Shown here: in pieces, positions 3,216 through 39,321 of the stretch
How positions within the stretch are numbered: position 1 is the first letter of the stretch
Layout: each line of letters begins with the position of its first letter
Assembly (NCBI GenBank): GCA_031271345.1
Contig: JAISVX010000001.1
Location: 186,001-250,000 of the forward strand
DNA from: Lactobacillaceae bacterium
Lineage (GTDB): Bacteria; Pseudomonadota; Alphaproteobacteria; RF32; CAG-239
Reading direction: 5' to 3'
DNA length: 64,000 nt
Program-made: the position numbers and the translations under genes
Notes under the pieces: model-generated
Database searches by the model: none
Told to the model about the DNA's origin: nothing
Seen by the model: only the letters and a program-made list of their open reading frames with translations

Positions 3216-3288
3216 ATACTCTCCTTATTAATGAAAAATAAATTTTATGTTATTATAATTTTCTAAAGTCTATAAACAGGAAATCATA

Positions 3289-3858
3289 ATGGAATATTTA
3301 GCTTATACTATATACACGATTACATTAATTTTGCTAATAATTTTTAACGTATATATATACTACGCTATTTTTTCCAGCAAATTTGGCAAATATCCCCCTT
3401 ATGTGCCAACCAGCGTCAAAAGACGAAAAATCGTTTTAGCAAAAATCTCCGATTGTCTTAAAGATTCCAAAAAACCGTTAAATGTTATCGACGCTGGAAG
3501 CGGCACTGGAGATATGCTTATCCCTTTGGCAAAAAAATTTCACAGTCACAAATTCATCGGCATAGAATGGGGATATTGGGTATATTTGCTATCAAAGCTA
3601 AAATCTAAAAATTTGAACAATATAGAATTTATTCACAGCGATATATTTAAACAGAATTTTAACAACGCGGACATAATATATTGTTACATTGTTAAAGCTT
3701 TTGAAGAACCGTTGTCAAAAAAAATAATTAAGGAAGCAAAAAAATCATGCTTAATTATAACCAACGGTGCTTTATTTAAAAATATGGAATTGGTCGAAGA
3801 GATAAAAGTTTCGGATAGATGGCTTTCGGACAGCATTTATGTGCATAGAATAAAATAG
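3289..3858 (+). CDS. Membrane-anchored class I SAM-dependent methyltransferase
   Basis: The 189-residue protein has one hydrophobic segment (about residues 5-30), then a Rossmann-type methyltransferase core with motif I VIDAGSGTGDM near residue 65 and an acidic residue after the second strand (FIGIEWG). This supports S-adenosylmethionine binding; the substrate is unknown. The C-terminal part is short for the family, so substrate recognition may rely on the membrane or a partner. It is divergent from mnmE with a 73-base gap and has an AGGAAA Shine-Dalgarno sequence. The next gene, a HAD phosphatase on the same strand, starts 114 bases later with no clear terminator between them. Confidence 0.7.
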   Translation: MEYLAYTIYTITLILLIIFNVYIYYAIFSSKFGKYPPYVPTSVKRRKIVLAKISDCLKDSKKPLNVIDAGSGTGDMLIPLAKKFHSHKFIGIEWGYWVYLLSKLKSKNLNNIEFIHSDIFKQNFNNADIIYCYIVKAFEEPLSKKIIKEAKKSCLIITNGALFKNMELVEEIKVSDRWLSDSIYVHRIK

Positions 3859-3972
3859 GCGTTTTCCAGACTCTACAGAATCTTTTTGCTATTTCTGGAG
3901 GGTTGTATCAAGGATACCGGCGTTTTTCTCTGTACGGGCTTTATACGGGGTTGATTTTTTAAAGGAAAAGAC

Positions 3973-4635
3973 ATGAAAAAATTAATAATTTGGGATTTTG
4001 ACGGAGTTATCGCCGATACTGAAAAATTATGGGTCAGCGTTTGGCGCGAATATATGAATAAAAAATTTAATCTTGGCTGGGATGAAAAAAAAGCGCATGA
4101 GGTTTTTGCCGGCGTAAGCGTAAAAACAAAATTGGAAAGACTTTCAAAATTAGGATTATTTCCTTCCGAAGAAGATTTGGAAAATATACTATCCGGCGAA
4201 ATTGTCAAAATGAACAAAGAGATGATTATCACAAAAGATATTGTCGACATATTTAAGAATGCCAAAGTTAAACAGTGCATTGCAACAGGCGGCATATTGA
4301 GTAAAACAATGAAAAAAATCAAAATTCTCGGGCTTGAAGAATATTTTAATGAAAGCAATGTGTTTTGCGCCGATATGGTTGAGCATGGCAAGCCAGAGCC
4401 TGATTTGTTTCTTTTTGCCGCGCAAAAAATGGGATTTGAGCCAAAAGACTGCGTCATAATCGAAGATTCTTATGCCGGGATTACTGCAGCACAAAGAGCC
4501 GGTATTGATGTTATAGGGTTTGCAGAACATCAAAACCTTGATAAAGAAAGGTTCGTTAAAGATATAAAAGAGATGGGTGTTAGAAATATTGCACTAAACA
4601 TGCAGGAAGTAAAAACTATCTTGCTTAATATGTAA
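3973..4635 (+). CDS. HAD-superfamily phosphatase, beta-phosphoglucomutase-like
   Basis: This is a predicted cytosolic phosphatase or phosphomutase of 220 residues that uses an aspartyl-phosphate intermediate. Motif I is WDFDGVIADTE at residues 5-15, with nucleophile and acid-base aspartates at positions 7 and 9. Motif II threonine lies in CIATGG, the conserved lysine in HGKPEPD, and the motif IV acidic pair in VIIEDSYAG. The cap between motifs I and II is helical, as in subfamily IA enzymes that act on small sugar phosphates or nucleotides. The exact substrate cannot be read from sequence. AAAGGA precedes the start, and the secreted-protein gene follows 19 bases downstream. Confidence 0.85.
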   Translation: MKKLIIWDFDGVIADTEKLWVSVWREYMNKKFNLGWDEKKAHEVFAGVSVKTKLERLSKLGLFPSEEDLENILSGEIVKMNKEMIITKDIVDIFKNAKVKQCIATGGILSKTMKKIKILGLEEYFNESNVFCADMVEHGKPEPDLFLFAAQKMGFEPKDCVIIEDSYAGITAAQRAGIDVIGFAEHQNLDKERFVKDIKEMGVRNIALNMQEVKTILLNM

Positions 4636-4654
4636 AAATTTTCGGAGAAAAAAT

Positions 4655-5401
4655 ATGAAAAAGATAATTCTGTTAATGCTAAGCATAATACTATTCTCAT
4701 ATCAAGCTAAAGCTCAAGAAGCCGAATCTTATATGGATATTGACGAGGATTATTTTGCAAATCTTTCAGAGGAAGATTTATTAAAAATGGAAGAAGAATA
4801 TTTCAAATCTGTCGAAATAGAAGAAAAAGAATTTCAAAAAGCGATGCAGAAAAATAATGAAGATATACAAAAGTCTATGGAAAAGCTGAAAGCAGAATTA
4901 GATAATATAAAAATGCCTGATATAAGTGGGTTTATCAATACATTTCCTCCTGAAATGCAGTCTTTCTACAAAGATATGATTGCAGATGATTTTATTAAAA
5001 ATATTGCAACCTGTATTCCTTCAGAGTTCTCTTATTATAACCCTATTCATAAACAAAACATGAAAAGGATAATAAAAGGTATTAGGGATGATAAATGCGA
5101 GTATGAGGAAACATTTTATGGCGGCTCTACACTAAATTGCAAATATCCTAAAGACAAACTTACGGCTTTATCCAAAGAATATAAGAGTGATAAAGAAAAA
5201 CTACTTAAGCATTTGATGATGCCTCCTTCAGTGGACGGGCTTATTTTTAAATTTGTAAATGATGCAAATGTGTGCCGCTTAACATCAAGCGATGGAAGAG
5301 ATATAACTACATTAGAAGATGCTACAGAAGAAGATATTGATAATCTTTTTGATAGTATTTTGAATCCTATGGAAGAATATAAAAACAACATGAGTTTCTA
5401 G
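4655..5401 (+). CDS. Secreted or periplasmic protein of unknown function
   Basis: The 248-residue product has a clear N-terminal signal peptide (MKKIILLMLSIILFSYQ, then a probable cleavage after Ala-Lys-Ala). Residues 30-90 are very rich in Glu and Lys and probably helical or coiled coil. The second half holds a few cysteines (for example in ATCIPSEF, DDKCEYEE, TLNCKY and ANVCRL), an even number that could form disulfides in the periplasm. No family was recognised. It follows the HAD gene by 19 bases with a GGAG Shine-Dalgarno sequence and is closed by a strong hairpin terminator at 5480-5519. Confidence 0.7.
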   Translation: MKKIILLMLSIILFSYQAKAQEAESYMDIDEDYFANLSEEDLLKMEEEYFKSVEIEEKEFQKAMQKNNEDIQKSMEKLKAELDNIKMPDISGFINTFPPEMQSFYKDMIADDFIKNIATCIPSEFSYYNPIHKQNMKRIIKGIRDDKCEYEETFYGGSTLNCKYPKDKLTALSKEYKSDKEKLLKHLMMPPSVDGLIFKFVNDANVCRLTSSDGRDITTLEDATEEDIDNLFDSILNPMEEYKNNMSF

Positions 5402-15878: not shown

Positions 15879-16928
15879 TTATTCAGACTCAATTTCTTCT
15901 AATGGCCAGCGGGGGCGTGGTTTAAAATCCAGCTTATTAATCAAACCTTTTTGGAATCTTTCCAGCCCTGCCCAGGCAATCATTACTCCATTGTCAGTGC
16001 ATAAGCGGATAGGAGGAGCGGAAAAAATCAAATCGTTTTTTTCGGCGGTTTGGAGAAGATGCGAACGCAGATACGTATTTGCGGCAACGCCTCCAGAAAC
16101 GACAGCGTCTTTTCCTGCGGGATAGTTTTTTTTGAAATATTTCATCGCCGTATCCAATTTTTTTGCCAGACAATCGGTAACGGCGGCTTGGAAACCAGCG
16201 CATAAATCTTCAGTGTCTTTAGGGCTTAGTATCGCATGCTCCATGGTTCCGTCTGGAGAAGAAGATTCAATAATTTTTCTTACGGCGGTTTTTAGACCGG
16301 AAAAAGACATATTAAAATCGCCGGAGTTAATCATTGGCCGCGGAAGAACAAAACGGTTGGCATCTCCTTTGTCCGCCATTTTTTCAATTATCGGACCTCC
16401 AGGGTAACCAAGATTGAGCATTTTTGCGACTTTATCAAAAGCTTCGCCAGCCGCGTCATCTATTGTTGAGCCAAGCTTTTCATAGCTTCCGACCCCTTTA
16501 ACAATCAGGATTTGACAGTGACCTCCGGAGGTTAAAAGCAAAAGATAAGGAAACGAAATGTCATTGCTTAAACGTGCGATTAGGGAGTGTCCTTCAAGGT
16601 GGTTTACGGCGATAAACGGTTTGTTTAAAGCCAAAGCAAGCGCTTTGGCTGCCATAACTCCAACCACTACTCCTCCTATTAAACCGGGACCGGCGGTGGC
16701 GGCAATCGCGTCAATGTCTTTAATGTTGACGCCGGATTTAGCTATGCAGTCTTCGATTATGTCGTCTATATGTTCAAGATGAGCGCGTGCGGCGATTTCG
16801 GGAACTACCCCGCCAAAAGCTTTATGCTCTTGCTGCGAAAGAAGAGTTTCGCTCAAAACTTCTTTTTTATCATTAACAATGGCAGCTGCGGTTTCATCAC
16901 AGCTACTTTCTATTCCAAGAACTATCAT
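15879..16928 (-). CDS. tsaD: tRNA N6-threonylcarbamoyladenosine synthase catalytic subunit TsaD
   Basis: TsaD transfers the threonylcarbamoyl group to A37 of ANN-decoding tRNAs, with TsaB and TsaE. The 349-residue protein starts MIVLGIESSCDETAAA, the hallmark N-terminus of the family. It has the metal-binding histidines in NHLEGH near residue 110, the ASKHA ATPase-fold motifs TSGGHCQIL and GSTIDDAAGEAFDK, and VSGGVAANTYLR near the C-terminal third. It is divergent from the Mic60-like gene, a neighbourhood seen in many alphaproteobacteria, though hemC and hemD are missing between them here. Confidence 0.96.
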   Translation of the reverse strand: MIVLGIESSCDETAAAIVNDKKEVLSETLLSQQEHKAFGGVVPEIAARAHLEHIDDIIEDCIAKSGVNIKDIDAIAATAGPGLIGGVVVGVMAAKALALALNKPFIAVNHLEGHSLIARLSNDISFPYLLLLTSGGHCQILIVKGVGSYEKLGSTIDDAAGEAFDKVAKMLNLGYPGGPIIEKMADKGDANRFVLPRPMINSGDFNMSFSGLKTAVRKIIESSSPDGTMEHAILSPKDTEDLCAGFQAAVTDCLAKKLDTAMKYFKKNYPAGKDAVVSGGVAANTYLRSHLLQTAEKNDLIFSAPPIRLCTDNGVMIAWAGLERFQKGLINKLDFKPRPRWPLEEIESE

Positions 16929-17014
16929 GTCAATATTCCAAGTAAATATATTGAAAGTTTTTTTTATTTATATACACTATCAAAAGACATTATGCAAAGG
17001 AAAAGGTGATTAAG

Positions 17015-18034
17015 ATGGCGAAGAGCAAAGAAAATAAAGAAGCGGCGGAAATCATAAAGGCAGATGTTGCGGAGCCAAAAACGCAGCCAAAAAAATTTAG
17101 CAGATTTTTGAAAAAAGTTTGGAATTTTATCTTTGGTCTTTTTGTTATCACCGTTTTGCTTGCAACTGTTTTCATTGTCATACAGCACCCGGAGATAAAA
17201 GAATATTATGAGGAAGTTATAACAGGGAAAAACCGTCAGGAAGTTATACGCCTTACGGAAGAGTTGGAAAGCCTTAAAAAAGCCGTGGGATATAACACTT
17301 CTTCCCGGGTGATGGTAAGCGAAATTAATGAAAGCCTTTTGGCTTTGAAAGAACGATATGATGTTTTGGAAGAAAACAATCTCAACACTATTCGCTCAAA
17401 AGCTGATGTAAGCCTTGTTTTGGGTATGATAGGGCGTCTTGACAACATAGAAAACAAAGTTAATGAGGCGGCAAAAGTCTCTGATAGAGGAGCCTTGATT
17501 GCGATGGCGACGGGGCTTGTTAAAGAAGCTTGGGAAAGAGGCGGGGATTTTACCTATGAAATGTCTGTTCTTGACCAGATTACGCGGGAAGAAACAAGAA
17601 TTAGACCATACATTGAAGTCTTAAATAAACATTCCGAGGGAATTGTTTATAACGAAACTTTATTAACCGGCGATTTTGAAAAAATCTATAACATGTATTT
17701 TCTTCAAGATGATGAAGAGATTACGGATGACAGCGACTGGAGAGCAAAGTTTAATAAAAAGTTCGGCAAGCTTCTTACAATAAAAATCAGAAGAACACCA
17801 GAAGAAAAAGAGGAAGTTAATCTTGATAAGACCCTGTCTTTGATAAAAGAGGGAGAATTTAATAAAGCGGTCGAAGAGCTTAATAAAGGAAAATATGCCG
17901 ATATAGTTAAAGACAATTCCGAACTTAAAGATTGGCTGCATCAAGCAAATGCGAGAGTGGAGTTTGTCTCCGCATTATCAAAAGTTTCAGCTTATTCATT
18001 GGCGGTTATGAAGGTTAATGAGTTTCAAAAATAG
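17015..18034 (+). CDS. Mic60 (mitofilin)-like inner-membrane protein
   Basis: From the ATG at 17015 (an upstream GTG at 17006 is an alternative) the product is 339 residues: a Lys-rich N-terminus, one transmembrane helix at about residues 34-56, a coiled coil at about 65-150, and a helical C-terminal domain. That domain carries a pattern typical of alphaproteobacterial mitofilin (EAWERGGDF then IRPYIEVLNKHSEGI, a Lys/Arg-rich KIRRTPEEKEE patch, EGEFNKAVEELNKGK and a final helix). Mic60 shapes intracytoplasmic membranes in Alphaproteobacteria and cristae in mitochondria. In relatives it usually lies between hemD and hemY; here neither is present. Confidence 0.7.
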   Translation: MAKSKENKEAAEIIKADVAEPKTQPKKFSRFLKKVWNFIFGLFVITVLLATVFIVIQHPEIKEYYEEVITGKNRQEVIRLTEELESLKKAVGYNTSSRVMVSEINESLLALKERYDVLEENNLNTIRSKADVSLVLGMIGRLDNIENKVNEAAKVSDRGALIAMATGLVKEAWERGGDFTYEMSVLDQITREETRIRPYIEVLNKHSEGIVYNETLLTGDFEKIYNMYFLQDDEEITDDSDWRAKFNKKFGKLLTIKIRRTPEEKEEVNLDKTLSLIKEGEFNKAVEELNKGKYADIVKDNSELKDWLHQANARVEFVSALSKVSAYSLAVMKVNEFQK

Positions 18035-18042
18035 GAGTTTAC

Positions 18043-19446
18043 ATGAGCTTAGAAGATTTAAAAAAGAACTGGACGGAAAATTATAAAACTGTTCCAGAAA
18101 GTTTGGGCAATGTAAAAAAAATTAAAACTGCGGCAACGGCTTTTAATGCCAATGTTGACGCGGTGATAAAAATATCGGGAAAAAAGCTTTTAGAATATAT
18201 CAATGAATATAAAATTTCTTTTGCCGAGCTGACAAATATAAAAAACTTTAGGCTTGACGAGCCGAGGGATGTTATAAAAGGCATTTTTAGATGTTTCAGC
18301 AAAGGTATAGGCGAGGAGTGGATTAGCGAAGATATTAAAGTTTATGACTGGATGGTTGAAAATATCGGTTATGACAGAATTCAAATGGGCGGGCAGGGCG
18401 GCATTGTCGCCAATATACTTGCGGTTGCGGGAATCGAAAGGGTATATGCCCATACAAACTCTTTGCCTAAGCTTCAAGCCAAGCAGTTTCTGCATTTAAA
18501 AAATCTCCTGTCTTTTAATGAAAAGGGCGAAGAAGCACCGGCTTATGAAATTGACAGGACAACTGACATTCCGTTAATACACTGGATTATAGAATTTGAT
18601 ATTGGCGATAGTTTGGAATTGGAAGGAAAAGTGATTGCCTGTCCGAAATCCAACAGGTTTATCGCTACTTATGACCCATTAAATCTTAACCTGATTAAAG
18701 ACGAGCCTTTTGTGAAGAAGCTGATAGAGACCCCTATGGATTTTATCGTCCTCTCAGGGTTTCATGCGCTAATCGAGGGTAATAATGGACTTAAGCTTGT
18801 TGAAGAAACCGTTCCGGCGATAAAAAAATGGAAAAATAAAAGCAGGGACGGTATTCTGCACCTAGAAATAGCTTCAACTCAAGACAAGGTTGTCAGGAAA
18901 GCCATAGTCGATAGAATTGCGGCAATTGTAGATTCAATAGGGGTTAATGAAAGAGAAACCATTGATATTTTAGAAGTTATAGGACAGGAAAAGCTTGCGC
19001 GGGAATGTGAAAAAAACGCTCACAGCGTTAATCTTTTTAAAGGCGTTATGGAGATAAAAAAATATACAAAATGTCCAAGAATACAAATGCATATATTTGG
19101 TCTGTATTTAACTGTTCAAAACAAAGATTTTAAGGTTTCCGCAGAGGCAAATTTGCGCGGAATGGAGTTAGCTGCAGTTGTTGCCGCAAGCAAGGCAGGC
19201 ACGGGTCATGTCAACGAAGAGAAAAATCTGCTTTGGGCTTATGGCAGAGAAGTTTCTGACATCGGTCTCTCAGAGCTGTCAGATTTGGCTCAATATATCG
19301 GAGATGATAATATTCTTAAGTCGGGAATTTCCGAATATGATGGTTTTGATATTATAGCTGTTCCGACGATTTTGATTGAAAAGCCGAAAACGCTTGTTGG
19401 TATGGGGGACACAATATCTTCGGTATCTTTAATAGGTACAATATAA
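18043..19446 (+). CDS. ADP-dependent sugar kinase (glucokinase/phosphofructokinase family)
   Basis: The 467-residue protein matches the ADP-dependent glucokinase/phosphofructokinase family, ribokinase-fold enzymes that use ADP instead of ATP and are best known from Euryarchaeota and animals. Visible landmarks are FNANVDAV at residues 34-41 (substrate side), MGGQGGIVAN at 115-124, SGFHALIEGN, HLEIASTQ, VDSIGVNERE, and the C-terminal GMGDTISS whose Asp456 is at the catalytic-base position. It starts 8 bases after the Mic60-like gene, and a histidine-phosphatase gene follows by 23 bases. Whether it acts on glucose, fructose-6-phosphate or another sugar cannot be told from sequence. Confidence 0.8.
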   Translation: MSLEDLKKNWTENYKTVPESLGNVKKIKTAATAFNANVDAVIKISGKKLLEYINEYKISFAELTNIKNFRLDEPRDVIKGIFRCFSKGIGEEWISEDIKVYDWMVENIGYDRIQMGGQGGIVANILAVAGIERVYAHTNSLPKLQAKQFLHLKNLLSFNEKGEEAPAYEIDRTTDIPLIHWIIEFDIGDSLELEGKVIACPKSNRFIATYDPLNLNLIKDEPFVKKLIETPMDFIVLSGFHALIEGNNGLKLVEETVPAIKKWKNKSRDGILHLEIASTQDKVVRKAIVDRIAAIVDSIGVNERETIDILEVIGQEKLARECEKNAHSVNLFKGVMEIKKYTKCPRIQMHIFGLYLTVQNKDFKVSAEANLRGMELAAVVAASKAGTGHVNEEKNLLWAYGREVSDIGLSELSDLAQYIGDDNILKSGISEYDGFDIIAVPTILIEKPKTLVGMGDTISSVSLIGTI

Positions 19447-19469: not shown

Positions 19470-20021
19470 ATGGCTATTAAAATTATATTTGAATCTCACT
19501 CCACAACGATAGATAATGAAAATCATGTATCTACGGGACACCATGATATAGAGCTTTCAGAAACAGGCGTCAAGCAGGCAAAAGACATGGGCAAAAGATA
19601 TATGGGCGTGGCTTTAAATACAGTGTATTGCTCAGATTTACAAAGGTCGTATAAAACAGCGGAAATAGCGTTTTTGGGTCGCGATGACATAAAGATAATC
19701 AAAGATAAAAGGCTTCGAGAATGCGATTACGGGGATTATACCCGCTTTCCCTCGCAAGAAGTGACAGCTCAAAAAGAAATTAGAATTGAAAAGCCTTTTC
19801 CTAACGGAGAAAGCTATGAAGATTGTTCGATAAGAATGAAAACTTTTTTAGACGACATAAAAAACGCCCATAAAGACGGTGATGTTATTATTATTGTAGG
19901 TCATCGCGCGACTCAATATGGTTTAGACCACTGGTTGTTGGGAAAGACTTTATATAAATCTGTTACCGACCCTTGGAAGTGGCAGCCTGGATGGGAATAT
20001 GAGCTGAAACAAGAATTTTAA
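19470..20021 (+). CDS. Histidine phosphatase superfamily protein
   Basis: The 183-residue protein has the fold of phosphoglycerate-mutase-like phosphatases: an N-terminal strand ending in ESHSTTID with the presumed phosphorylated histidine at residue 10, YCSDLQRSYKTAEIA, an acidic LRECDYGDYTRFP segment, NGESYEDC, and a second histidine in VGHRATQYG. The usual Arg-His-Gly is Ser-His-Ser here, so the first active-site arginine is replaced; activity or substrate may differ. It closely follows the ADP-dependent kinase gene, suggesting a linked role in sugar-phosphate metabolism. It is closed by the terminator at 20033-20062. Confidence 0.8.
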   Translation: MAIKIIFESHSTTIDNENHVSTGHHDIELSETGVKQAKDMGKRYMGVALNTVYCSDLQRSYKTAEIAFLGRDDIKIIKDKRLRECDYGDYTRFPSQEVTAQKEIRIEKPFPNGESYEDCSIRMKTFLDDIKNAHKDGDVIIIVGHRATQYGLDHWLLGKTLYKSVTDPWKWQPGWEYELKQEF

Positions 20022-20032
20022 ATACAGTGTTT

Positions 20033-20062
20033 AAAAGGGAAGCTTATTCCCTTTTATTTTTT
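20033..20062. terminator. Terminator between the histidine phosphatase gene and corC
   Basis: AAAAGGGAA (20033-20041) pairs with TTCCCTTTT (20047-20055), followed by a T-run. The right arm overlaps the last codons of the converging corC gene. Confidence 0.8.
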
Positions 20063-20895
20063 AGTTCGGTAATTTTTATTAAACTCAACTGGTTTTTGTG
20101 TTTTTTAATCACTTCAAATTTTAAACCGTCAAAGACAAACTTCTGTCCTTCGTTTGGTATTGTGCGGGTCATATCAAGCAAATATCCGGCGATGGTTACC
20201 ATATTGTCGTCATTGATGTTCCATCCGTACTTGCGGTTTATGTCGCGGATTGTTGCTTCGCCGTCTATCAGATATGACGAGTTTTCGCCCTGGCGTTTCA
20301 GGCTTACATCGCCGGAAGTTACAACGTCGCTTTCGTCATTGATGTCGCCGACGATTTCTTCAAGAATGTCCTCCAGAGTGATAATGCCTTGAAGCTCGCC
20401 ATATTCGTCAACCACAATTGCAAAATGTTCTCTGCGTTCCTTAAATAGTTTCAGCTGATGTAAAAGATTGGTGCTGTCTGGTATAAACCATGGCTTAATC
20501 ATCAAATTGCCGATGTGGATTTTTGAGTAATCGTTATCGTTTTCGACGCAGGCTTTAAGAAGGTTTTTTACAATTAAAACTCCGACAATATTATCCGGCT
20601 CGTCCTTAAAAACAGGAACCCTTGAAAACGGACTGTTTTTTATTTTTTTAACCATAAGGTCTATCGGCGTGTCAATATCAACGGAAAAAAGGTTTTTGCG
20701 GTGGTTCATTACGTCATAAACCTCGACGTCGGCTAAATCCAAAATGCCTTTAAGCATTTCTTTTTCTTCTTTTATTTCTGAGCCGCTATACATATTAATC
20801 GCGTCGCGAATTTCTGATATTGCGCTGTTGTCATCAAGCTCCGCGGTTTTGTTAAGCGTGAATATTTTTAGTATAAAGTTTATAAGTTTTTGCAA
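20044..20895 (-). CDS. CBS-domain protein of the CorC/HlyC family
   Basis: The 283-residue cytosolic protein has a short N-terminal segment, a tandem CBS pair (about residues 60-185, with SPFSRVPVF, DNIVGVL and FAIVVDEYGELQGIITLEDILEEIVGDI signatures) and a C-terminal transporter-associated domain ending near residue 278. It lacks the four-helix DUF21 membrane domain, so it is the soluble CorC type linked to magnesium and cobalt export or to membrane-protein regulation, and not a true hemolysin. It lies three bases after aroK on the same strand. In other alphaproteobacteria aroB usually sits between these two genes. Confidence 0.85.
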   Translation of the reverse strand: MQKLINFILKIFTLNKTAELDDNSAISEIRDAINMYSGSEIKEEKEMLKGILDLADVEVYDVMNHRKNLFSVDIDTPIDLMVKKIKNSPFSRVPVFKDEPDNIVGVLIVKNLLKACVENDNDYSKIHIGNLMIKPWFIPDSTNLLHQLKLFKERREHFAIVVDEYGELQGIITLEDILEEIVGDINDESDVVTSGDVSLKRQGENSSYLIDGEATIRDINRKYGWNINDDNMVTIAGYLLDMTRTIPNEGQKFVFDGLKFEVIKKHKNQLSLIKITELKNKRE

Positions 20896-37088: not shown

Positions 37089-37290
37089 AGATTTCCTCTT
37101 TAATTTAGTTTTAATAAAGGCTTGTTATATTAAACTTAGTAGCTAATTATGTACAAGTCAAGAGACGTGGCTTTATAATATAGCGTATTTATAACAAAGT
37201 TTTGGTACATAGCCTATTGTAAAATAAGAATGTTTATGCTAGTTTACTGAAAATTTTTTATTGCTGTTTTTTATTAAAGAAAGACGTGTT

Positions 37291-39321
37291 ATGGTTCCGA
37301 TGCCGCCAGAATTAGAGAGTAAAAATATTTTAGGGTTATTGCCAGATAACTTTAATAAATCTAAGTTTTCAATTACTTATGGAATAGTAAACAGTCCGTT
37401 GCTAAAAGAGATTCAGAATCTCGGAAGAAACCAGTGTTTGGGAAAATGCGGATGGCCGCATATTGAAAAAATAGACGCATGGATGATTACTGCGGAAACA
37501 GCTACATTCATGAAAATAGGCGGCTTGGGAATGATAGCCTCGGAGCTTCCCGAAGCTTTTAACGAAACTTATACAGACGAAAAAATGACCGTTGTAACGC
37601 CTTTGTATCTTGGCGATACAAAGAAGAAAAAAGCCGCTTTTGACAAAGATGTTTATCTTGGAAGCGAAAGCGAAAATATAAAATTGACCAAGCTGAAAAG
37701 CATAGATGTAGTTTTTGCGGGCAAAAAAGGAACTTTAATTAATCATAAGGTTCAAATTTTTACAGGCGAGCTTAAAGGCGTTAGATACATCTTTCTTGAT
37801 AATGACAGATTTTTTTCGATAAATCCGCATAAAAATAATAAGCCTTCTCAACAGGGGTGTTATGTTCTTAATGAAGACGGCGTAGACGAAGTGGAGAGAT
37901 TTGCGTTTTTCTCCAAGGCTGTTTATGTTCTTCTTAAAGGGATATGCGAGGGAAAAATAAAAGATATAGGCAAGCCCAATATTTTGGTTGCCAACGATTG
38001 GCACAGCGGTGCTTTATCCGGCTTAACAAAATATTTAACCACGGCGCAAAACTTTACCGGCGAAATGACGGCGGATTTGGCGGAAGAAATTAAGGCTGTT
38101 CCAGTTATTCATATTGCTCACCATCTGGGGTATCAGGGCTGGGACTACAACAACACTTCAAAGATACTAAATTCTTTGTATGAAAATGTCGCCAGTCTGG
38201 TGTTTAAGAACGCGAGAGCGATAAAAAACACTAATCCGCGCACAACAAATACTTTAATTGTTTATGACTGTTATAATCAGGCGTCATGCAATTTTCATCT
38301 TGCCGACAGAGTTGTCACCGTATCAAAAAATTATCTTGAAGAAGTTTCAAAAAATTTGAAGTTTGGCTATGATTTTCGCGATATTTTAAAAATCCGCAAA
38401 GATCACCGCAATTTTTTTGGAATTGTAAACGGTTATGATAAAGATTTAATATCTCCAAACGAAGAAAAAATAAAACATATCAACGAATATTTTGGAGATA
38501 CGGATTTCAGGGTATATTCTGAGAAGGATGCCGCAACGAAAAACCATAATAAAAATGAGTTTGTAAAACTGATTTCAAAAATTGCAAAAGACCTGGAATA
38601 TAAGCAAAAAGTTATCCCTTTGATTGATATATATAAGTTCTCGGATTTATCAAAAAAAGTAAAACATGCGGAAAATGTCGCCATCTTTTCCGCAACAAGC
38701 AGGCTGGTTGAGCAAAAAGGTTATGACATTGCCGCGGAAGCGATTATAAAAGTTATTGACGGGGCGCCAAAAATTGATGATTTGCCGATATTTATATTAG
38801 GCGGCGCGGGTGAAGACGCCCAATTTGAAATTCTTCGAAAACTTAAAGACAAAGTAATGAAAATAAACCCAAAAATCGGGGAAAGAGTTTTTGTGTTCCA
38901 TGGTTACAGAGACCAGTTTGCTTATGTAATTCAGTTGGCGTCAGATTTTTATATGATGCCGAGCCGTTTTGAACCGTGCGGTTTGACTCAGATGGAAGCT
39001 CTGGCGAAAGGCGCTCTTCCTATTGTTACATCAACAGGCGGGCTTGTTGATACGATAGACGAGAATATCGACGGTTTTAAAACGGAAGTTTTTTTTGTTG
39101 ATAAGACCAGAGTTTTCGGCAGCAATTTAACTGCGCAACGACTAAAAAACAATACAAACGCTTATGCGGAAACATTGTTGAAAGCTCTTAACACTTTTTA
39201 TGAAGATAAAAAGAAAATAGAAGAGATGAAGGTAAACGCCATGCATAAAGACTTTAGCTGGGATGTTGAAAAAGGCGCGCTGTCGAAATATTATCAGTTG
39301 TTTAAAACCGGGCATATCTAA
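37291..39321 (+). CDS. glgA: Glycogen/starch synthase (GT5), unusually long
   Basis: This GT5 enzyme would extend alpha-1,4-glucan from ADP-glucose. I take the ATG at 37291 (676 residues); the frame is open 10 codons upstream from a TTG. The sugar-nucleotide loop FMKIGGLG is at residues 73-80. The active site includes HIAHHLGYQGWDY, a Rossmann nucleotide domain with EQKGYDIAAEA and the E-x7-E motif in PSRFEPCGLTQMEALAKG. It is about 200 residues longer than E. coli GlgA, with roughly 60 extra N-terminal residues and inserts in the acceptor domain. No other glycogen gene is adjacent. The start has only a weak AGAAAG ribosome site. Confidence 0.82.
   Translation: MVPMPPELESKNILGLLPDNFNKSKFSITYGIVNSPLLKEIQNLGRNQCLGKCGWPHIEKIDAWMITAETATFMKIGGLGMIASELPEAFNETYTDEKMTVVTPLYLGDTKKKKAAFDKDVYLGSESENIKLTKLKSIDVVFAGKKGTLINHKVQIFTGELKGVRYIFLDNDRFFSINPHKNNKPSQQGCYVLNEDGVDEVERFAFFSKAVYVLLKGICEGKIKDIGKPNILVANDWHSGALSGLTKYLTTAQNFTGEMTADLAEEIKAVPVIHIAHHLGYQGWDYNNTSKILNSLYENVASLVFKNARAIKNTNPRTTNTLIVYDCYNQASCNFHLADRVVTVSKNYLEEVSKNLKFGYDFRDILKIRKDHRNFFGIVNGYDKDLISPNEEKIKHINEYFGDTDFRVYSEKDAATKNHNKNEFVKLISKIAKDLEYKQKVIPLIDIYKFSDLSKKVKHAENVAIFSATSRLVEQKGYDIAAEAIIKVIDGAPKIDDLPIFILGGAGEDAQFEILRKLKDKVMKINPKIGERVFVFHGYRDQFAYVIQLASDFYMMPSRFEPCGLTQMEALAKGALPIVTSTGGLVDTIDENIDGFKTEVFFVDKTRVFGSNLTAQRLKNNTNAYAETLLKALNTFYEDKKKIEEMKVNAMHKDFSWDVEKGALSKYYQLFKTGHI

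Follow-up and report, generated by a model that had tools for sequence, protein, structure and literature searches.

Phosphorylation of hexoses with ADP is usually presented as a speciality of archaea and animals, and the kinase family PF04587 has been described as archaeal and animal, with bacterial reports (PMC7948494). In the sugar site of AncMsPFK, residues K179, N181 and R212 are important for fructose-6-phosphate (F6P); they are conserved in phosphofructokinases (PFK) and bifunctional enzymes only, N181 being replaced by His in the specific Thermococcus glucokinase (GK), whereas N32, D36 and R206 are conserved throughout the family (Munoz et al., PMC7948494). ADP-dependent enzymes are also found among the PFK-As of cyanobacteria and some alphaproteobacteria, where GGDGSxxI is their mark (Shen et al. 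2024, PMC11609450). The corresponding motif is GGDGSxxG in ATP enzymes and GG(D/E)D in those using PPi, and ADP-only activity was measured for the PFK-As of Synechocystis and Azospirillum brasilense, among others (PMC11609450).

Here we describe a PF04587 gene in an alphaproteobacterial genome of 1,504,945 bases (5 contigs, 99.8% complete). It probably encodes an ADP-dependent glucokinase (ADP-GK) of ribokinase fold, which would act together with the PFK-A of the same genome. The window, that is, the whole stretch of DNA analysed, spans 64,000 nucleotides.

The kinase gene and its locus

The kinase open reading frame starts with ATG (Table 1). In a profile search against PF04587 its translation scored 222.5 bits (curated cut-off 27; E 1.1e-65) and matched the 430-position profile from position 3 to 429, confirming full-length family membership and the initial annotation's proposal of an ADP-dependent sugar kinase homologue. 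The motifs named there occur in order and contain residues of the catalytic set: FNANVDAV (N35/D39), MGGQGG (116-118), NERE (the NXXE motif, N302/E305) and GMGD (D456). No second PF04587 gene was found by profile search of the whole genome. The solved relatives retrieved from the PDB with the kinase sequence were exclusively ADP-PFK and ADP-GK enzymes or reconstructed ancestors, the top match being an ADP-PFK, AncMsPFK (6c8z; E 6e-56). As expected of a divergent clade, the kinase stayed below the NCBIfam equivalog cut-offs both for ADP-GK (NF010642, 202.8 bits against 387; NF010641, 174.5 against 554) and for ADP-PFK (TIGR02045, 202.6 against 408.1). By the NCBIfam rule its sequence thus classes as a divergent family member and not as an equivalog; it adds a new member to a family already known.

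Table 1. Features of the window discussed in the text
Feature	Coordinates	Strand	Evidence
F420-0:gamma-glutamyl ligase family protein, 414 aa	10947..12191	-	PF01996, 178 bits; NCBIfam CofE models cover N-terminal part only, far below cut-off
tsaD, syntenic left flank	15879..16928	-	Pfam E 4.8e-93; conserved synteny
Conserved hypothetical, left flank, directly upstream of kinase	17006..18034	+	Without Pfam match; synteny
Predicted ADP-glucokinase (PF04587), 467 aa	18043..19446	+	Pfam, PDB relatives, pocket, AlphaFold model
Histidine phosphatase branch 1 (PF00300, His_Phos_1)	19470..20021	+	Pfam E 6.9e-31; 23 bp downstream of kinase
CBS/CorC_HlyC protein, syntenic right flank	20044..20895	-	Pfam; adjoins empty site in kinase-free genomes
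Malic enzyme, 390 aa	35340..36512	+	First half of 764-aa MaeB-type model only
Glycogen synthase GlgA	37261..39321	+	NCBIfam TIGR02095 E 3.6e-64, Pfam PF08323; 18 kb from kinase

In the order, the kinase usually sits in a block ordered nth, tsaD, hypothetical, kinase, CBS/CorC, aroK, xerD, with insertions and some rearrangements. Many relatives have a homologue of the hypothetical gene on the left side of the kinase, and one also flanks the empty site on that side. In four kinase-free genomes (L167, L170, L171 and L168) the hypothetical and CBS genes are separated by 1-9 bp or share an overlap of 4 bp. Such clean absence would most simply reflect loss, since the kinase is retained at that site in other genomes of the genus (G454, G387). 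Assembly contamination was rejected, since dozens of independent MAGs show this locus with conserved synteny.

The initial annotation had linked the kinase to a histidine phosphatase and a glycogen synthase. Both genes exist; the proposed links fared less well. No homologue of the phosphatase was found beside the kinase in the loci of 80 relatives and 9 extra regions searched, and a functional pairing was therefore rejected, the phosphatase being no conserved partner in those relatives. For the distant glycogen synthase the link is one of co-presence alone.

Several other genes at or around the locus deserve mention. The hypothetical protein has an N-terminal hydrophobic segment, and in CAG:239 (L015) the gene after its homologue encodes a TPR protein that weakly matches HemY_N. 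This neighbour suggests that the hypothetical gene may be a divergent Mic60/mitofilin-like gene. Elsewhere in the window, the PF01996 protein seems unusual for an alphaproteobacterium, and the malic enzyme lacks the phosphotransacetylase-like half, as its partial MaeB match indicates.

Sugar pocket, fold and choice of substrate

We aligned 113 bacterial rows (the window protein and 112 others, among them some duplicate records of one genome and the own genome's copy) with six archaeal or ancestral references. The catalytic set of the family is intact in the kinase: N35, D39, GGQ (116-118), R205, HXE (H273/E275), NXXE (N302/E305) and D456. The Mg-ADP motifs HXE and NXXE and D456 of GXGD are invariant in the alignment, and so is R205. 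At the positions of AncMsPFK K179, N181 and R212 the kinase reads L178, H180 and D211, and two Pyrococcus ADP-GKs read C/H/D there, the same class. H180 and D211 are present in 113/113 bacterial rows, none of which has Lys at the K179 position. E92, the counterpart of AncMsPFK E90 and common to bifunctional enzymes and GKs, is kept. The kinase thus shows the ADP-GK pattern, with the Glu retained, N181 changed to His, and K179 and R212 lost (AncMsPFK numbering), and the predicted glucokinase-type pocket is common to all 113 rows. Because the F6P residues are replaced, the kinase is predicted to be an ADP-GK and not an ADP-PFK, a choice that the initial annotation had left open. The glucose-contacting residues of the archaeal enzymes, D39, E92, G116, G117, Q118, H180 and D456, are also all kept, and it is from the residues of the pocket that we infer specificity for glucose.

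An AlphaFold2 model built on 38 family members (pLDDT 93.1, pTM 0.89) displayed the two-domain ribokinase-like fold. The three best VIA-align matches were ADP-GKs, namely 5o0j (Z 49.5; rmsd 1.9 over 440), 4b8s (48.4) and 1ua4 (47.5), followed by AncMsPFK (45.5 and 45.1), the Mj PFK/GK (44.4) and mouse ADPGK (33). All top 17 matches were ADP-dependent kinases (Z 32.6-49.5), and the next, other ribokinase-like proteins, scored 23. VIA-align therefore favours the GKs but Foldseek, ranked by E-value, places 6c8z first, so that structure alone does not decide the substrate.

It is improbable that the kinase is an ADP-PFK or a bifunctional ADP-PFK/GK. The best PDB sequence match, AncMsPFK, and the retained E92 speak for such an activity; however, all three F6P residues are replaced, the GK-type His and Asp occur in every bacterial row, the GKs fit better in structure, and the genome already encodes a PFK. 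ADP-dependent phosphorylation of another hexose or a sugar analogue appears just as doubtful. The bacterial clade is separated from the characterised enzymes by a long branch (2.77), which counts against the ADP-GK assignment in that substrate or donor may possibly have changed along it. Moreover, almost every bacterial row has Q114 where the archaeal enzymes have R112, and the same genome encodes an ATP-type glucokinase. Retention of every glucose-contacting residue argues against this alternative. A switch to ATP is very improbable: donor specificity is not certain from an alignment, and limited ATP use by some archaeal ADP-PFKs is noted in a review (PMC12965863), but the Mg-ADP-linked R205, HXE and NXXE are invariant and none of the solved relatives found is named as an ATP enzyme. 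An ADP-GK thus remains our preferred assignment, with donor, substrate and metabolic role as predictions.

Possible partner enzymes in upper glycolysis

Glycolytic enzymes of the genome were inventoried by single-family searches. Its sole PF00365 protein is of PFK-A type (C2:760063-760968; L136 3037-4128), with PRK14071 as its best NCBIfam match, above generic ATP-PFK models. The donor site, GGDGSMNI, fits GGDGSxxI, and by this signature the enzyme is predicted to be ADP-dependent. The same signature was found in 31/32 main PFKs sampled in the order, the remaining one having GGDGSxxV, and in 28 of the 30 PFKs that scored highest in the class sample; Anoxybacillus PfkA, taken as a control, reads GGDGSYQG. 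GGDGSxxI is a predictor and not proof of ADP use, because an Ilyobacter protein outside the clade has it too. An Acaryochloris homologue with GGDGSxxI is labelled 'ATP-dependent' in public records. PFK is present in 109/125 genomes of the order, including this one, and its replacement by the PF04587 kinase was therefore rejected.

A full-length pyruvate, phosphate dikinase (PPDK) is encoded at C5:82138-84744, and PPDK was found in all 21 genomes tested, in pieces in two of them. The genome also contains a second, N-terminal piece of PPDK (C1:113128-114663; 539 aa open frame, 768 bits). Since pyruvate kinase is present as well, PPDK need not run catabolically, and flux toward ATP from AMP, PPi and PEP is what we infer.

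Given the ADP-PFK-A signature and the presence of PPDK, a composite ADP-dependent upper glycolysis is the best hypothesis for this genome. The kinase would convert glucose and ADP to glucose-6-phosphate and AMP, and the single PFK would convert F6P and ADP to FBP and AMP; glycolysis would then draw on ADP at each of its two investment steps. AMP would be recycled by PPDK (PEP + AMP + PPi to pyruvate + ATP + Pi) or by adenylate kinase. The modified sugar-phosphate route suggested in the initial annotation becomes plausible in this form, since the sole PFK carries the ADP-PFK-A signature. Extension of this scheme to the whole order, as a horizontally acquired ribokinase-fold ADP-GK combined with a non-homologous ADP-dependent PFK-A of a kind widespread in alphaproteobacteria and AMP recycling by PPDK, is a proposal to which we give even chances.

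The kinase is not the sole candidate for glucose phosphorylation and not strictly essential, because the genome encodes a PF02685 glucokinase (C4:67328-68242, 211 bits), whose best NCBIfam matches are glucokinase models, below cut-off. Full-length ROK kinases were found in 26/33 PF04587-negative and 26/92 PF04587-positive genomes (Fisher p 8e-7), a contrast that comes mainly from one genus (p 0.09 within g2, 0.65 outside). As this effect stems from one genus, NCBIfam matches do not settle the substrate of the ROK proteins, and the genome keeps its PF02685 glucokinase, these data hint only weakly that the ADP kinase might replace ATP glucokinases. A short ROK kinase is encoded in genomes of genus g286; in L142 its gene (3216-4007) overlaps a downstream anhydro-N-acetylmuramic acid kinase-like gene (3992-5269), which suggests a role in amino-sugar rather than glucose metabolism.

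Distribution, origin and comparison with known systems

PF04587 was detected in 5/385 genomes of a class-wide sample and in 92 of the 125 genomes of the order. The rarity in Alphaproteobacteria initially expected thus holds across the class but not within the order, where the gene is common. The kinase is therefore a lineage trait of its order and no isolated oddity. A scan of GTDB contigs, which picks up close relatives only, recovered proteins sharing ∼47-67% identity with the kinase. They came from MAGs labelled alphaproteobacterial or 'proteobacterium', many of these from animal guts where the record title states the source, and from Bacteroidota, Ignavibacteriota and a single Spirochaetales MAG. 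The nearest relatives outside, in Bacteroidota, Ignavibacteriota and Spirochaetota, share about 47-53% identity.

In the kinase tree the named Pseudomonadota rows formed one clade (SH-aLRT 99) and the Bacteroidota, Ignavibacteriota and Spirochaetota rows a second (SH-aLRT 98). When haloarchaeal rows were included, the long branch set off the bacterial clade (support 100/100) in trees that took in few archaeal sequences and where the bacterial stem is long. In G050 (L082), from another alphaproteobacterial family, the kinase joins neither clade firmly, and the PFK is sister to those of the order. A horizontal origin of the kinase is likely. The plasmid collection held haloarchaeal PF04587 members only, at 25-27% identity, and a plasmid-borne origin was rejected.

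No bacterial ADP-GK of the PF04587 family is listed in the available parts of two recent reviews (PMC12696579, PMC12965863), and a literature search covering titles and the starts of abstracts returned no report of an ADP-dependent glucokinase in Alphaproteobacteria or Bacteroidetes. A bacterial clade with a glucokinase-type pocket, found at one locus in most of a largely host-associated order, together with a predicted ADP-PFK of unrelated fold, makes the old question of why glycolysis is started with ADP and not ATP testable in bacteria, with the lineages that lost the kinase as natural controls. If the proposal is true, metabolic models of these gut bacteria, which count energy in ATP, would have to be corrected; the composite upper glycolysis would be the surprising part, if confirmed by assay.

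The kinase shares its fold with animal ADPGK (5ccf, 5ck7; Z about 33), from which it differs in sequence (18-20% identity) and in that the animal enzyme is ER-localised. Fold, catalytic motifs and the best E-value (6e-56) relate it to the ADP-PFK and ADP-PFK/GK enzymes of Methanosarcinales and Methanococcales (6c8z, 6xio, 5od2), whose F6P residues it lacks. The cyanobacterial and alphaproteobacterial ADP-PFK-As (PMC11609450) resemble the kinase in their choice of donor, but at the investment step that follows. Their signature GGDGSxxI is carried by the genome's PFK, the product of a separate gene, whose PFK-A fold is unrelated to the ribokinase fold of the kinase. With the archaeal ADP-GKs of Pyrococcus and Thermococcus (5o0j, 1ua4, 4b8s) the kinase has in common the fold (Z 47.5-49.5), the catalytic motifs and a glucose-type pocket with His, Asp and no Lys. 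Unlike them, it has a bacterial host, only 26-30% identity, QMGGQ in place of RMGGQ, and a position in a separate long-branch clade. If true, the proposed pathway of these small-genome gut alphaproteobacteria would represent a bacterial counterpart, reached by convergence, to that of Pyrococcus.
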